Positions 10,640-17,769 of a stretch of DNA of 64,000 nucleotides are shown here, in pieces. Numbering within the stretch: the first letter of the stretch is position 1; each line of letters starts with the position of its first letter. This stretch comes from Chlorophyllum brunneum (lineage: Eukaryota > Basidiomycota > Agaricomycetes > Agaricales > Agaricaceae): assembly GCA_963576785.1 (NCBI GenBank), contig OY756151.1, forward strand, positions 1,302,001-1,366,000, written 5' to 3'. Made by a program: the position numbers and the translations under genes. The notes below the pieces were generated by a model. It had not been told where the DNA came from. It saw nothing but the letters and a program-made list of their open reading frames with translations, and made no database searches.

Positions 10640-12300
10640 ATGAATAACACACCTAGGATAAGAGTCGCGATTGTGTAAGTTGATCATGTCGAACACTCTT
10701 TGCTGTTGCGTTACTTAGATTCTGGGTAGGGGTGCTGGGATAGGTGGTTTGACGCTAGCCGTTGCCATTAGTCGATTAGACCACGACAAGAATATCGAGC
10801 TACACATTTACGAGGCCACGCCAAAGCTGGAGGAAATCGGAGCTGGACTCACGATCTGGTATCGGACCTGGGAGCTTTTGAAGACCCTTGGCTGTCAAGA
10901 ATCATTGAAGAATCGAGCTCTCAACAATGAAGCGGTCTTCCGATTCAGAAAAAGTGATCAGAAGGACGGTTTCACTTTCCTTGACTTGAGGGTTCCTGGT
11001 GCGATTTCTTCCCCACATATAGATGCTGTTTACCAGCCAAATTTTCAGGTGGTAGCTGGACCATTCATCGCGCTGACCTGCAAAAGACTCTCCTCGAGAG
11101 ATTAAATGAAAACGTACACATACACTTAAGCAGCCGCGTTGTTGTGTGTGAAGAGCGGGGTAGTGCTGCGACGCTCAAGTTTCAGAATGGAGAAACTGCC
11201 AGTTTCGACCTTGTCGTTGGGGCTGATGGGCTTAGGTCTGTTATCCGCAAAGACCTACTCACGGCTAAATTTCCCAATGAGAAGGACCGTATTGATCCCA
11301 TTTGGAGCGGCACATACGCATACCGTAGCTTGATCCCTGCAGAAACACTGGCGCGGAAAGCACCAGATCACCAGGCAGTCGTAGCTCCAATGATGGTCAG
11401 TTTCGCTTGATCGAATGCGGGTTAGGGACTAACGGTCTCGCTAGTATTGCGGCAAGAACAAGGTCGGCTCGTCATGGCTCACTCCATGAAACGGACGCTG
11501 AAAAATTCCGGTAGCACGTTGTCACATACCCAATATCTATGGGCCGTATCATTAACGTAGCGGCCTTTTACTCGAAACCAGAACAAGAGGGGAGAGCTTT
11601 TTCCGGTGAGACTGTTCAAGAGGCATCACGGGAAGAAGTCCTTCAACGGTTTGAGGGCTGGGAGGACGAAGTTGGAAAACTTCTTGAGGTGAGCCTTGAC
11701 CTTCGCGATAGGAAAACTATGTATCACAACTTCGCCAGTGCATGGATAGGCCATCACGTTGGGCGATGTTGGCATCGAAGCCCCTATCTGCCTATGGATC
11801 TGGGAGGATTGCATTATTAGGGGACGCTGTAAGTAAAACGTCCGCCCAGCCTTATCTCCTTATTCAGTGTTGCCGGGTTATGGCCGCAGGCACATTCAAT
11901 GACTCCTCATCTGGGAAGCGGTGCTGGTCAAGCGATGGAGGTACGAATATTGAACACCTCATGGTCCAAACACTTTGATTTTGAAAGACATGTCAAACAG
12001 GATGCGTATGTATTGGCATCTGTCCTAACAATGGGCCTTCAGAACGGAATCGGCATAGCTCGAATGATAGAAATCTACAGCACAGTGCGACAGCCTATGG
12101 GGAATTTCGTTTTGAACGCCTCTAGGAAGCAGGGACTCCGTTTTGAGCTCAACGCTGGTGGGTTGGAAGGTATAAAGGAGAACGAGCCAGTTCAGATAGC
12201 CCGCCTCGCGAAACTGTCTGAGGAGATCACTCAAGGCTGGGAGTGGTTATCGAATACGTCCGTGCAGGAGGGCCGAAGGCGAGCAATTGCACGTCTGTAG
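10640..12300 (+). CDS. FAD-dependent monooxygenase, salicylate hydroxylase-like
   Basis: Class A flavoprotein monooxygenase (FAD_binding_3 type), using FAD and NAD(P)H to hydroxylate a small, often aromatic, substrate. Eight exons: 10640-10674, 10730-10998, 11049-11395, 11445-11462, 11515-11688, 11739-11828, 11890-11940, 12001-12300; 427 residues, normal for the family. The N-terminal Rossmann motif VAIVGAGIGGLTLA is rebuilt only by the first splice. The second FAD/NAD(P)H site DLVVGADGLRSVIRK and the GD motif RIALLGDA are present, followed by AHSMTPHLGSGAGQAME. The fourth exon is only 18 nt (YCGKNK). The seventh intron (11941-12000) is 60 nt and free of stops, so its retention would insert 20 residues without a frameshift. 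It could equally be a 6-hydroxynicotinate- or kynurenine-type enzyme; the substrate is unknown. Confidence 0.9.
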
Positions 12301-12396: not shown

Positions 12397-13695
12397 ATGG
12401 TCATGGCGGACAGACCTCGCAGGTCAGCAAGGCAACCAGCTAGGATCCCTGTCGTTCAGACGAAAAAGGAGTCATCTGATGTGGTCACCGTCCCTTCGCG
12501 CCCAACGAAACGTAAGGCTCCGGAACCTGTCGATCCTCAAACCCAACTGCGCAGCATCCTGGAAAATCCCAAAAGTGTATTGACGACAACGGACATATCC
12601 GTACGTTCTACCACCCAACAGCCGGAACGAATCAAAATGCCACCGTTCACATCAGGACTAGGCTACATTAACTCAACACATCTTATTAGGAGCTGCTTAA
12701 CGCCAATACTTGGGAAATGCTCTCTGACAAGTCTCGGAAGGCGCTTTTGACGTTGCTACCATCAACTGCCTTCGCGGACCATCTACCTGGTGCTAGTCAC
12801 TTGGGGAAATCCTCGCAAGATCAAGCAAGGGCTGCCTCTGATTTGACGGAGGGAACCTTGAACTTGAGCATTTTCAACGATCCGCATTTTTTGGACGCCG
12901 CCCACACTTTCCAAGATCACTTGTTTAGCGGATGGTTCACCGCTTCGCACCATGCTAAGCTAAATAAATACCACGACGGGGTTCAAGACGGGACTCTCGC
13001 GGTACCATGGAAAGATGAGGTTTGGGAACGGGAGAATCCACGTCCCGTTATACCAGTGGACCAAGCCAGTACTACAAGTTTGGGTGTCGCCACAGGGTTT
13101 GGAACGAAAGCAACAGCAGGGTACGTGATCGTAATCATCATTCCGGGCGCAGAAGCTGAGGCTTCTTGTGCAGCGCCTCTGCCGACCTAAAGCTTTCGGA
13201 TCTAGTAAAAGACAAGGTGCTACTTGTCGGTGATATAATCTCATACAGGAGAAATTTCTCAGGACTCGGTATTGTGGTCGAAAAGGATACAGTAGTGAGT
13301 GGCATGTACCCGTTTTAAACGGCTCATTTCTCATCTTCGCGTCGGATCGATAGATCCAATCTACTGATCCACTCACGCACACCCTGGCCGTTCTAGTGCC
13401 AAAGGGCACTACCATTTCGCTACCTTCTTCGCTCACCCGCCACAAACCTGACGATCCTGGATCCGAGGTTATGTCGGTGACGATTTCGACGCCTCAAATG
13501 CTCGAAACACTTGTCCTGGATACGGACGGGAGAGTCAAGAAGAACCAAAGACCAAATGGAAACGCGTGGAAATCTTTTACGGTCAGCAGATGGAGGGAGG
13601 GCTACACTTTTGATGACACGACGGACCCGAAAGGTGGCCGTGAAATTCATGGTACCTTATTTTACCTTCGAGGTAGCCACTATTACGAACGGTAA
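12397..13695 (+). CDS. ASXH (DEUBAD) domain protein, fungal Additional sex combs homologue
   Basis: Likely regulatory subunit of a UCH-type deubiquitinase. Four exons: 12397-12600, 12690-13120, 13174-13294, 13354-13695; 365 residues. After a basic N-terminus (ADRPRRSARQPAR) the ASXH/DEUBAD core runs from about residue 50 to 165: ILENPKSVLTTTDI, then ELLNANTWEMLSDKSRKALL, LLPSTAF and a NEF-like segment FNDPHFLDAAHTFQDHL. A middle part (about residues 210-255) fits the conserved central region of fungal ASXH proteins, and the end is GTLFYLRGSHYYER. In animals such domains bind and activate BAP1/Calypso or UCH37. The gene converges on a UCH gene ending only 286 bases away, which supports a partner role. 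Assignment rests on remembered family patterns, so moderately sure. The first ATG (12397) was taken; 12403 is also possible. Confidence 0.8.
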
Positions 13696-13981
13696 ATTGG
13701 TACGTTAACTTCGGACTAAAAAAAATGGTGGACGTAGATCCAAAGGAGAGGACAAGGGTCTACTTGTTTAGTCCTTGCCAAGACACCGCGGAAGGGATGC
13801 GTTTCATGAAGCGATCCCAAATACCAGGGCGCAGATGACGATCGATACATGCAACCTGTTCCAGTTACTGGTGTACAGACGGTATACTTCATCTGCCGTC
13901 CAGATGTCAGCAACATCGAGGCAGCGCTCGCAATTGAGGAGCTCTCACACCAGGTGACAACAGTAATGAAGACGACCGATC

Positions 13982-15612
13982 TTATGATCTCTGTTTTTTG
14001 GAAAGCGGCTGCTTTATCTTCCGACCGTTATCATCGAGATTCAAAATCGGGTTCAGAAGTCCTTGATCATGCAACTCCGATACGAACGATTTGAAAAAGG
14101 GTTCATAGTCGAAAGTCCGCTTCAAATGTTCCGTCTTTCAAAACCAAATTTTGTTCGATGATTGGGGATGGCTCAACTAACATGAGTGAAACGCCACTTA
14201 CATACTCCTGAGTACGTTTCGTAACTTCATCCTGAAGCGCAGATCTTGCTCGGATCGCATCTTGCACTACCGTTTGCCACACCAATGCCAGCACATCTTG
14301 AGACATATCCATTAACTCCAAGTCGCGTTGCATCCTCTTATTGGCAAACCCTGGCGGATGCTCGTAGCCGTCATGAATAGGGTACTCAAAGACCGTCTGA
14401 GATTCTTGATACAAGAGCGGATCGACCTGTATTGATTGTTAAGTTGAATGTGAAGAACGTGTTCAAAAACCTGGAGTTACCTTTTGTTCCCAGCCTGTTT
14501 CCATTCGACTCTCCAGTTTCCCCTTGTCCCTTTTTAAGAACTCGAGCTCGTCGGTTAATTTAACCTGGGTATCTGGAGCAACGGCGAGAAGGCTGAACCG
14601 AATTTCACCGTCCTCCAAGCTGGAACCACCGTACTTGGCCATCTTGAGGCGCAATGCCGGTCGTGCAACATCCATCCACCCATCCCTACTCAGATCCGAG
14701 GCTAGTTCCCCTACTTCGAGGGGACCGGATTTCAACCCGTCCAACTCCCATACTTTCCCAAAAGCTGGGACATAACCAATGAAGTGATAAGTGGGGATTT
14801 CACTTTCATCTGGCTGCTCTTCCACTTTTCTCGCTCTGCCGAACTTAGCCGTCCGCGCCTTTGGTGTCCTCGCCTTCGCGCCCGAAGACTGAGTCCCCTT
14901 TTTCTTCGAGTCTGTCGTATCGATTGCGATAGCGTTCAACGAAGCACGAATATCAGCAGGACTTGATGGAAAATCGTGATTGACATGAGGGAGAAATCAA
15001 GATTATCGGAGAATCATTAATATATCAGAGTGACATACCGAGCCAAGGAATTATGTACCCGACGGAGTAATGGTGAATTGGTGATTGCCAACCCTCTCAT
15101 CTGGGGTTCGAAAGTCAAAAGAAGAAATTGCAAAGAGCAACCGTAAACTGAATGCGTACCACGGGCGAAAATAGTTGTGTTTCTTTTCGGAAATGCTCCA
15201 GTTCATCCCCAAGTTCAAGGTCCGGACAATTGAAAAGAACATTCAAGAGAGCATGTGTAGCGCAAGCATCGTCGCTGAGTTGATTTGCGAACCATACCCG
15301 TTCAGCCGCGGGATCCCCGAAATCCGTCGGGCGATGAGTGTCCTTATGCCACGTAAAGCAAAGTATCAGGCCATAGAGATCCAAATGCTCCACGGCCCAT
15401 GGTTCAATATCATAGAGCTCAACAACTTCGACTCTCTTCACCCCCAGTCCTCTGGTTAGCGAGGAAAAAACGCCTGGCACACCGAACCAAGAAGTCAGTT
15501 ACCTGTGAAGATGATAGGAATTCAACTGACCAGGGTCTGACTCTATGACTGCAAATGGGCCCCCAACGAGGTCCAATGAGGGACCAGAGACACTTTCGGA
15601 GGTTCCATTCAT
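13982..15612 (-). CDS. Ubiquitin C-terminal hydrolase (peptidase C12), UCH37/BAP1-like with ULD tail
   Basis: Cysteine deubiquitinase that removes ubiquitin from small adducts, histones or proteasome-bound chains depending on partner. Six exons: 15612-15531, 15473-15160, 15100-15039, 14961-14481, 14426-14202, 14134-13982; 438 residues. The N-terminus has the family signature AVIESDPGVFSSLTR. Catalytic residues are visible: oxyanion Q92, nucleophile C98 (QLSDDACATHALLNVL), H212 (YHFIGYVP) and D227 (WELDGLK). A basic insert (residues 171-200) sits in the crossover-loop region. The C-terminal part holds a coiled stretch and a ULD-like tail (FDYEPFFKSFVSELHDQGLL) ending in a lysine-rich tail, as in UCH37 and BAP1/Calypso. 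The CATHALL motif and tail lean towards BAP1; GEIRFSLLAV leans towards UCH37. It converges on a gene for an ASXH/DEUBAD protein. Confidence 0.92.
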
Positions 15613-16033
15613 CCTATAAACTTGCGTGAGTTTCGAGTCTTGGACATGGACATACACGTGGGAATCAAAGAGCCAAGAATGCTCACACTCCGCACCTGGT
15701 ACTCCAATCGCACCCACCTCGGTAGCCTACATATCTATCTAGCTGAAATTTATCCCTCAGCCCCACAGAAACGGTCAAATAATTCTGATGTTGGTACTGT
15801 AGGGTTTCTCACTTATATACAATATCTGGTGCGTTGAGCACGTCTCGCGTGGCTTGCTGTTCTCGGTGCCTAAAGGGGCGGCGAATTATCGGGATTTAGG
15901 CATCTTCTCTTTAGCTCAGCTGCTCACTGGATTACTATTTCTCCGGCAGGTGAAACAGTTATCTGCAGTTATTTGGAATCCCCCTTTAGTTGGACGCGTA
16001 CTCCATTATCTCACCTTCATCCGATTATCTACT
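15613..16033. promoter_or_regulatory. Shared divergent promoter region of the UCH and GH5 genes
   Basis: The 421 bases between two start codons pointing away from each other must contain both promoters. I see no unambiguous TATA box. A short frame open through part of it on the plus strand has no recognisable content. Confidence 0.5.
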
Positions 16034-17769
16034 ATGTCACTGCTCAGAGTCTCTGGAACTAGAATCGTCGACGAGGCTGGCAAAGAGATCGTTCTCCGTG
16101 GCGCCGGTCTCGGAGGATGGATGAAGTGAGCACGGCACGTCGCAACGCACAAAGATCAATTTGCTGATGTCTTCGCAGCATGGAAAACTTCATCTCTGGT
16201 GGGTGATGAAGAAATCTTCCCGGGGTATTCAGTTAATTGTCGTACTAGGTTACCCTGGCTGTGAATTCCAGATCCGCGAAGCCCTTGCTGAGTCGATCGG
16301 ACAGGAAAAGTCAGAGCTCTTTTTCGATAAAGTGAGTGATTGTCATCATGACCTTAAATTTTATTGTATCTAATGCCAAGTGCAGTTCTTGGAGTATTTC
16401 TTCCAAGACGATGACGCCAAATTCTTCCAGAGCCTCGGATTGAACTGCATCCGCATTGCCTTCAATTACCGTCATTTTGAAGGTGAGAAACATTACAGTT
16501 TTTGTTACCTTTCCAATTCTTACATGATCCCAAGACGACATGAATCCCATGGTCCTCAAACAGTCCGGATTCAAGCATTTGGACCGCGTGATCGACATTT
16601 GCGCCAGACACGGCATCTACACCATCCTGGATCTCCACACCGCTCCTGGTGGTCAAAACACCGATTGGCATTCCGACCACGGAGGCCATATCGCCAACTG
16701 TAAGTAGGATCCGTTGAGCTTTGCAGTGCTCTCTCTCTAATACGTCCGCTAGTCTGGAATCATCGCCATTTCCAGGAGCGTGTCATTTGGTTGTGGAAAG
16801 AACTCGCCAAGCATTACAAGGACAACAAATGGATTGCAGGTTACAACCCCCTCAACGAACCTACCGAATCCAAGCACACCCGCCTCATCACCTTCTACAA
16901 CGAAGTTCATGCTGCAATTCGTGCACAAGATCCCGACCACATCATCTTCTTTGATGGAAACACTTTTGCTTCTGACTTCTCTCACTTCGGGGATGCACAC
17001 AAAAAATGGGATAACACCGCCTACTCCATCCACGATTACTCCGTGTTTGGTTTCCCCGCCGCGCCAGAGTCGTATACTGGCACAGATGAGCAAAAACGTC
17101 GTCTCAGGAGGAGTTATGAGAAGAAGCGTGAGTGGATGGATGAGCGTGATCTTTGCGTCTGGAATGGCGAGTGGGGCCCAGTTTACGCTCGCAAACAATA
17201 CGATGGCGAGAAGACTGATGCCATCAATGAGGTCCGTTACAAGGTCCTCAATGATCAGCTCGAGATCTACACCAAGGTACGAATAATGTTCGCTAGATCC
17301 CTGTAAAAGCTCACCCAAGTCTCAGGATCGCCTGAGCTGGTCCATCTGGCTGTACAAGGACATCGGCTTCCAGGGAATGGTTCACACTTCCCTTGACACT
17401 GCTTACATGACCCTCTTCAAAGACTTCCTAGCCAAGAAACACCGTCTCGCCGTCGACGCCTGGGGTGCTGATGAGAAGGATATTCGTCACGCCTATCAAC
17501 CCCTCACCGATCTCATCACCCAGGAAATTCCGGAGCAATATCGCAGCTTGTACCCCGCTCCCGTTTGGAAGCTCACCGATCGCATTGGTCGTCTCGCCCG
17601 CAACATCTTGGTCACCGAATTCTTGATCAAGGAGTGGGCCGATCACTTTACTGGCAAGACTGAAGCCGAGATCGACATGATTGCCGCTAGCTTCAAGTTT
17701 GAGAACTGCTTGAAGAGAGATGGTTTGAATGCTGTCTTGACGGCTAATGCTAAACTTGCTCAACAATGA
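16034..17769 (+). CDS. Glycoside hydrolase family 5 (cellulase-fold beta-glucanase), apparently intracellular
   Basis: Retaining GH5 enzyme, probably acting on beta-1,3- or related glucans or beta-glucosides; subfamily not resolved. Seven exons: 16034-16125, 16179-16198, 16249-16331, 16386-16482, 16535-16699, 16753-17276, 17326-17769; 474 residues. The N-terminus RIVDEAGKEIVLRGAGLGGW is the usual exo-glucanase opening and there is no signal peptide, so the product is likely cytoplasmic. GH5 landmarks: IRIAFNYRHFE, ILDLHTAPGGQN, acid/base E188 in YNPLNEP, HDYSVFG and nucleophile E292 in VWNGEWGP. The C-terminal extension of ~110 residues beyond the barrel is unassigned. Exon 2 is only 20 nt. 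It shares a 421-base divergent promoter region with the UCH gene. Confidence 0.93.

Follow-up and report, generated by a model that had tools for sequence, protein, structure and literature searches.

In the animal systems closest to the genes described here, a DEUBAD domain regulates a deubiquitinase of the UCH family that carries a ULD tail. The Polycomb repressive deubiquitinase (PR-DUB), in which Calypso pairs with Asx and BAP1 with ASXL1-3, is presented in the cited papers as an animal complex opposing PRC1 and provides the model for activation through DEUBAD–ULD binding (PMC4729829, PMC6158172, PMC7683540). UCH37 (UCHL5) is likewise regulated by DEUBADs, those of RPN13 and INO80G, and the loop in the region of the NEF motif is described as a critical regulatory site that aids ubiquitin binding in RPN13 and blocks it in INO80G (PMC4729829). 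We analyzed a 64,000-nucleotide stretch of the Chlorophyllum brunneum genome (assembly GCA_963576785.1, contig OY756151.1, positions 1,302,001 to 1,366,000; hereafter the window), in which two convergent genes encode an ASXH/DEUBAD protein and a UCH deubiquitinase with a ULD. We favor the reading, at a probability of roughly 57%, that these genes encode a PR-DUB-like pair whose DEUBAD would dock on the ULD and activate the enzyme, with chromatin as the likeliest setting and H2A as a candidate substrate.

12397..13695, plus strand: ASXH/DEUBAD gene; exons 12397-12600, 12690-13120, 13174-13294 and 13354-13695; 365 amino acids; splice model without stops
12529..13037, plus strand: ASXH (DEUBAD) domain, residues 45-184, split by intron 12601-12689; Pfam PF13919
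13011..13013, plus strand: codon of K176, aligned with Asx K325, the DEUBAD monoubiquitination site (alignment to 9v33_L, counted by hand)
13696..13981, no strand: spacer between the stop codons, 286 bases, tail to tail
13982..15612, minus strand: UCH deubiquitinase gene; exons 15612-15531, 15473-15160, 15100-15039, 14961-14481, 14426-14202 and 14134-13982; 438 amino acids
14054..14348, minus strand: ULD, the tail type that binds DEUBADs in UCH37/BAP1 enzymes; motif KRTFDYEPF; intron 14135-14201 inside
14739..14786, minus strand: active-site stretch with H212 (His in 60/60 aligned relatives) and D227 (Asp in 59/60)
14808..14918, minus strand: basic, lysine-rich insert between the catalytic Cys and His, resembling a nuclear localization signal (NLS) by a simple text pattern
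15262..15282, minus strand: active-site stretch with Q92 and C98 (Gln and Cys in 60/60 aligned relatives)

Both genes are confirmed as real and intact. Their spliced models read without internal stops, and relatives align across nearly the whole length of each protein, which places them far beyond chance. The preliminary description of this DNA had called an ASXH-domain protein at 12397-13695, a UCH enzyme with Q92, C98, H212 and D227 and a ULD-like tail, and 286 bases from stop to stop. The distance matches our splice models, the four residues lie where they had been placed, and the profile searches agree with both gene calls. The first protein matches PF13919 (E 2.9e-24, 86 bits versus a cut-off of 25.8), the sole family found in its Pfam scan and one that is matched in 70/70 scanned relatives; its relatives are of similar length, and one from Leucoagaricus is 67% identical with 99% of the length aligned. 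The second matches Peptidase_C12 (E 2.6e-49, 168 bits versus a cut-off of 27), and its relatives are 70-78% identical, that of Agaricus bisporus 78% over 97% of the length. The nearest named relatives of the window proteins belong to Leucoagaricus, Leucocoprinus and Agaricus. We note that the second methionine of the ASXH gene, at 12403, is the likelier start; MxDRPRRS or MDRPRRS opens many relatives. The fifth intron of the UCH gene (donor GTAAGT at 14201, acceptor 14135) was chosen by hand, restores the ULD frame and agrees with the relatives.

The ULD itself is matched by UCH_C at 3e-5 and 24.2 bits, slightly under the cut-off of 26, and 89 of the best 120 relatives listed, from 494 found, carry a precomputed match to this family (PF18031). 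Within the 60 aligned relatives over which all UCH columns were counted, themselves drawn from those best 120, the ULD motif keeps R in 60/60, T in 59/60 and D in 60/60. The domain aligns with the ULDs of BAP1 and UCHL5, and the structure model of the UCH-type relative P0123 shows a helical tail.

Sequence and predicted fold alike assign the DEUBAD of the ASXH protein to the ASX type. The fold predicted for the ASXH relative P0001 matches the DEUBADs of Asx and ASXL1, the only ones to stand out among the entries listed in the fold comparison. Alignment also places K176 at the equivalent of Asx K325 and ASXL1 K351, the lysine whose monoubiquitination plays a role in animals (PMC6197237), and this column is Lys in 70/70 aligned ASXH relatives. 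The likeness to PR-DUB thus comprises an ASX-type DEUBAD, the lysine at its monoubiquitination site, and a UCH enzyme with a complete active site and a ULD whose motif contains the “RT” of BAP1.

On the animal model, the ASXH protein would use its DEUBAD to bind the ULD of the UCH enzyme, holding that tail against the catalytic domain and steadying the crossover loop; ordering of the ULD and this loop would then raise ubiquitin affinity, as in Calypso/Asx and BAP1/ASXL1. Monoubiquitination of K176 could feed back on activity in the animal manner. The likeliest site of action would be chromatin, where ubiquitin on histone H2A is a candidate substrate. Binding, activation, nuclear place and substrate are all inferred by analogy.

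Several features of the two proteins and of their relatives differ from those of animal PR-DUB. The NEF motif of ASXL is not kept in the 70 aligned ASXH relatives, which carry D-x-H-F at this position (D130 in 52/70, H132 in 55/70, F133 in 68/70). The asparagine of the dimer interface (Calypso N292, BAP1 N251) is not kept in the UCH family either, where the column, aligned by hand to a BAP1 chain, holds E in 48, D in 8, Q in 3 and V in 1 of the 60 relatives. Neither PHD nor HARE-HTH is matched in the Pfam scan of the ASXH protein, and the HARE-HTH profile has no match in the whole genome, with the control matched in 3/14; Drosophila Asx, we note, also lacks HARE-HTH (PMC7660087). Loss of NEF and of the dimer residue suggests a mode of contacting ubiquitin, and of any 2:2 assembly, unlike that of animals. 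Such a family-specific loop, in a region with opposite effects in RPN13 and INO80G (PMC4729829), could even mean that the ASXH protein inhibits this UCH, as INO80G does UCH37. We regard inhibition as improbable: among the entries listed in the fold comparison, only the DEUBADs of Asx and ASXL1 are conspicuous, and the lysine at which monoubiquitination activates is present in 70/70 relatives.

The comparison of the window UCH with its animal counterparts is less favorable to a BAP1-like identity. The structure model of the UCH-type relative P0123 (predicted local distance difference test score 85.6) finds UCHL5 as its best fold match, followed by Calypso and BAP1. Whole-protein scores of the window UCH are 160 bits to UCHL5 versus 137 to BAP1, and profile scores 251 versus 206, while identity is about 40% to both alike; several of its relatives are labeled “isozyme L5” in the databases. 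The ULD alone very slightly prefers BAP1 (17.7 versus 16.5 bits, both weak), as does a hand-made ULD consensus (26.7 versus 26.1). In a 23-row tree, 18 window-type proteins cluster together (98/98) without a resolved sister, and the protein placed beside BAP1/Calypso (91/87, flagged as long branches) is not the window UCH but, contrary to its assignment, a UCH37-like protein encoded on contig C1 of the same genome; the branches of both C1 genes are very long. Ancestry from BAP1 or UCH37 is therefore not settled by the tree, and whole-protein scores lean toward UCH37.

These data raise the alternative that the window UCH represents a second enzyme of the UCH37 type, working at the proteasome with RPN13 or in another complex, with the ASXH protein acting elsewhere and the two genes neighbors by ancient accident. 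This enzyme shares with UCH37 the UCH and ULD architecture, the top whole-protein sequence and fold scores and, presumably, DEUBAD-based regulation. The rest of the genome (38.9 Mb, 14 contigs) bears on this point. The Peptidase_C12 profile has 7 matches there, at 4 loci. The C1 gene has its best PDB match in UCHL5 (124 bits versus 100 for BAP1), with a ULD-like open frame adjoining it by eye, and the C1 protein scores 394 to UCHL5 and 347 to BAP1 but only 262 to the window UCH; consequently, the two genes have the look of old paralogues. Two further loci are UCHL3-like by eye. An RPN13 DEUBAD (RPN13_C) lies on contig C6, whereas the window DEUBAD protein matches only ASXH in Pfam and gives the single ASXH profile match in the genome. 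A separate proteasomal UCH37/RPN13 set may thus exist beside the window pair. These separate genes may fill the proteasomal place and favor the PR-DUB-like option over a UCH37–DEUBAD module, two possibilities that the preliminary description had offered side by side; the UCHL5-leaning scores and the unresolved tree keep the choice from being complete. Together with the slight BAP1 preference of the ULD and the distance correlations described next, this leads us to consider a second UCH37-type enzyme unlikely, though it is the strongest of the alternatives.

Co-variation of the two proteins lends mild support to the pair. Using 42 species and a glucanase of family GH5 encoded next to the UCH gene as a reference, tree distances correlate with rho 0.72 for ASXH–UCH, 0.62 for ASXH–GH5 and 0.51 for UCH–GH5. 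The partial correlations are 0.59 for ASXH–UCH given GH5 (permutation p 0.0005), 0.43 for ASXH–GH5 given UCH and 0.12 for UCH–GH5 given ASXH. The ASXH–UCH correlation thus extends beyond GH5, though an ASXH–GH5 correlation remains. GH5 is slow, has paralogues and is an imperfect proxy for the species tree, and the permutation ignores phylogeny, so that these values are exploratory.

The preliminary description had also taken adjacency itself to suggest a module kept together. Species lists were built from the best 120 matches per search with unnamed rows dropped, giving 107 species with ASXH, 108 with UCH and 71 in common, and two proteins of one species were called as sharing a contig when their contigs were of equal size. 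Because one species may be represented by differing assemblies, the resulting counts are lower bounds. ASXH and UCH lie on one contig in at least 35/71 species, where 1.75 would be expected for genes placed independently in 40 Mb genomes, and outside the species that we take to be Mycenaceae the fraction is 35/49. Running locus tags on the shared contig differ by one in 6/8 species (by 4 in Panaeolus and by 2 in Blastosporella; Galerina, with JGI numbers 11 apart, is left out of this tally). As a control we chose the other neighbor of the UCH gene, for which no link to deubiquitination is expected.

16034..17769, plus strand: GH5 glucanase-type gene, synteny control, head to head with the UCH gene; hand-joined model; outside the proposed module

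UCH and GH5 lie on one contig in at least 38/54 species. All three genes are listed for 42 species, of which 21 have ASXH–UCH linked and 28 UCH–GH5; both links occur in 15, only the first in 6 and only the second in 13 (exact p 0.17 for 21 versus 28). Linkage of ASXH to UCH does not exceed that of UCH to an unrelated neighbor, and the adjacency of the pair is therefore not evidence of a module. In Mycenaceae, the ASXH–UCH linkage is gone in all 22 species though both genes persist, while UCH–GH5 is still linked in 8/10 of the Mycenaceae within the 42; in the remaining 32 of these species the two links are about equal (21/32 and 20/32). The genes are, moreover, convergent and share no common promoter. 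We thus reject adjacency as support for a functional module and hold selection for adjacency to be very improbable, and the failure of the pair to exceed this control speaks for the UCH37-type alternative. A single control pair weakens the inference from adjacency and gives no measure of the genome-wide background; even so, a tempting synteny argument is undone by a simple neighbor control.

Returning to the PR-DUB-like reading, its meaning depends on what is known of H2A ubiquitination in fungi. A review of fungal Polycomb systems states that known critical components of canonical PRC1 are encoded in no fungal genome then examined and that the ubiquitination of H2A in fungi had received no detailed study, yet its table has a Cryptococcus Bmi1 (PMC7348808); a survey reports PRC1 in deep-branching fungi (PMC10638273). 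In the C. brunneum genome, the RAWUL, VEFS and NFRKB profiles have no match, but their controls are silent too, so that this has no bearing on absence. A partner pathway of the PRC1 kind, which animal PR-DUB opposes, is not among our findings. The H2A C-tail has 4 matches in the genome, and the 2 that were read both carry, by eye, a Lys at the place equivalent to K119. Both families are already annotated in fungi, the relatives of the first by their sources as “Asx homology domain-containing protein”; by title or opening of the abstract, none of the open-access matches listed describes a fungal PR-DUB or a fungal ASXH protein, and we found no functional study in this literature. If the reading is true, species across the Agaricomycetes would have a DEUBAD of the ASX type whose regulatory lysine is invariant, together with a UCH to match, which raises the question of what this eraser acts on should the known writer be absent.

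Two further differences from animal PR-DUB concern the regions outside the shared domains. Where BAP1 and Calypso carry a cationic C-terminal extension, the UCH enzyme has a short, basic tail (18 residues, 6 of them K/R; tails of fewer than 8 residues occur in 7/56 measured, of 61 sequences including our own), and its basic insert ahead of the catalytic His shows the NLS-like pattern in 48/53 of those sequences where it can be delimited; this insert might act in nuclear import or help to bind nucleosomes. The ASXH protein, for its part, carries its own conserved C-terminal domain.

13174..13692, plus strand: most of the conserved C-terminal domain of the ASXH protein; intron 13295-13353 within; conserved columns; weak RAMA-like signal

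This domain is mostly confident in the P0001 structure model. RAMA is the only further Pfam family present in more than one ASXH relative (6/70 at E values up to 10), with a best E value of 0.0094 that falls below the cut-off and a highest score of 15.3 bits versus a cut-off of 35.2. The three matches with coordinates pair RAMA positions 3-5 with residues 210-218, the start of the domain, and helices and strands follow one another in the model in a way that looks compatible with the RAMA domain of MPND, whose elements were judged by eye from sequence. The Pfam scan of the window protein itself gives no RAMA match, an hhalign comparison of the domain with a single MPND-like sequence finds none, and 7ydt is not among the 50 entries listed in a fold search that used the whole-chain model as query. 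A RAMA-like C-terminal domain is thus a weak lead only. RAMA domains are often joined to deubiquitinase domains in eukaryotes, as in MPND and MYSM1, whose deubiquitinases are of the MPN type, and that of MPND binds double-stranded DNA, with N6-methyladenine without effect (PMC9963953). The mushroom proteins would share the association of such a domain with deubiquitination and differ in that the deubiquitinase is a UCH on a separate polypeptide and the match lies far below the cut-off. It is a speculative extension, and a doubtful one, that mushrooms hold a PR-DUB-like complex without the animal H2A-ubiquitin writer whose ASX subunit carries a RAMA-like domain for DNA or nucleosome binding, which would join in one protein what animals split between ASXL and MPND, the erasing of ubiquitin and a candidate sensing of DNA.

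We note some minor observations. A link to fruiting was considered and rejected: an ASXH gene lies within a 10 kb monokaryon-fruiting interval in Flammulina filiformis, where the segregating change is reported in a neighboring splicing gene and the ASXH changes do not segregate (PMC12295547). The ASXH protein P0082 of Athelia sp. TMB also bears a ribosomal L27A domain, perhaps an annotation fusion. Agaricus bisporus has no ASXH protein among the best 120 matches listed, unlike Leucoagaricus and Leucocoprinus, while close UCH and GH5 relatives are listed for it; missing annotation or gene loss may account for this. About 420 bases separate the head-to-head UCH and GH5 genes (15612-17769), which, judged by shared contigs, are possibly a conserved divergent pair. 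About 15 kb past the window end, on the same contig (C13:1378500-1384000), a weak UCHL3-like Peptidase_C12 match scores 25.7 and 23.9 bits, or 46.2 and 42.8 with in-frame neighbors, with one TAG in the first; it may be a gene or a relic. Spacing upstream of the ASXH gene is very tight: a flavin monooxygenase-like coding stretch, read by eye in several frames (10719-12300, plus strand), ends about 100 bases before its start codon.
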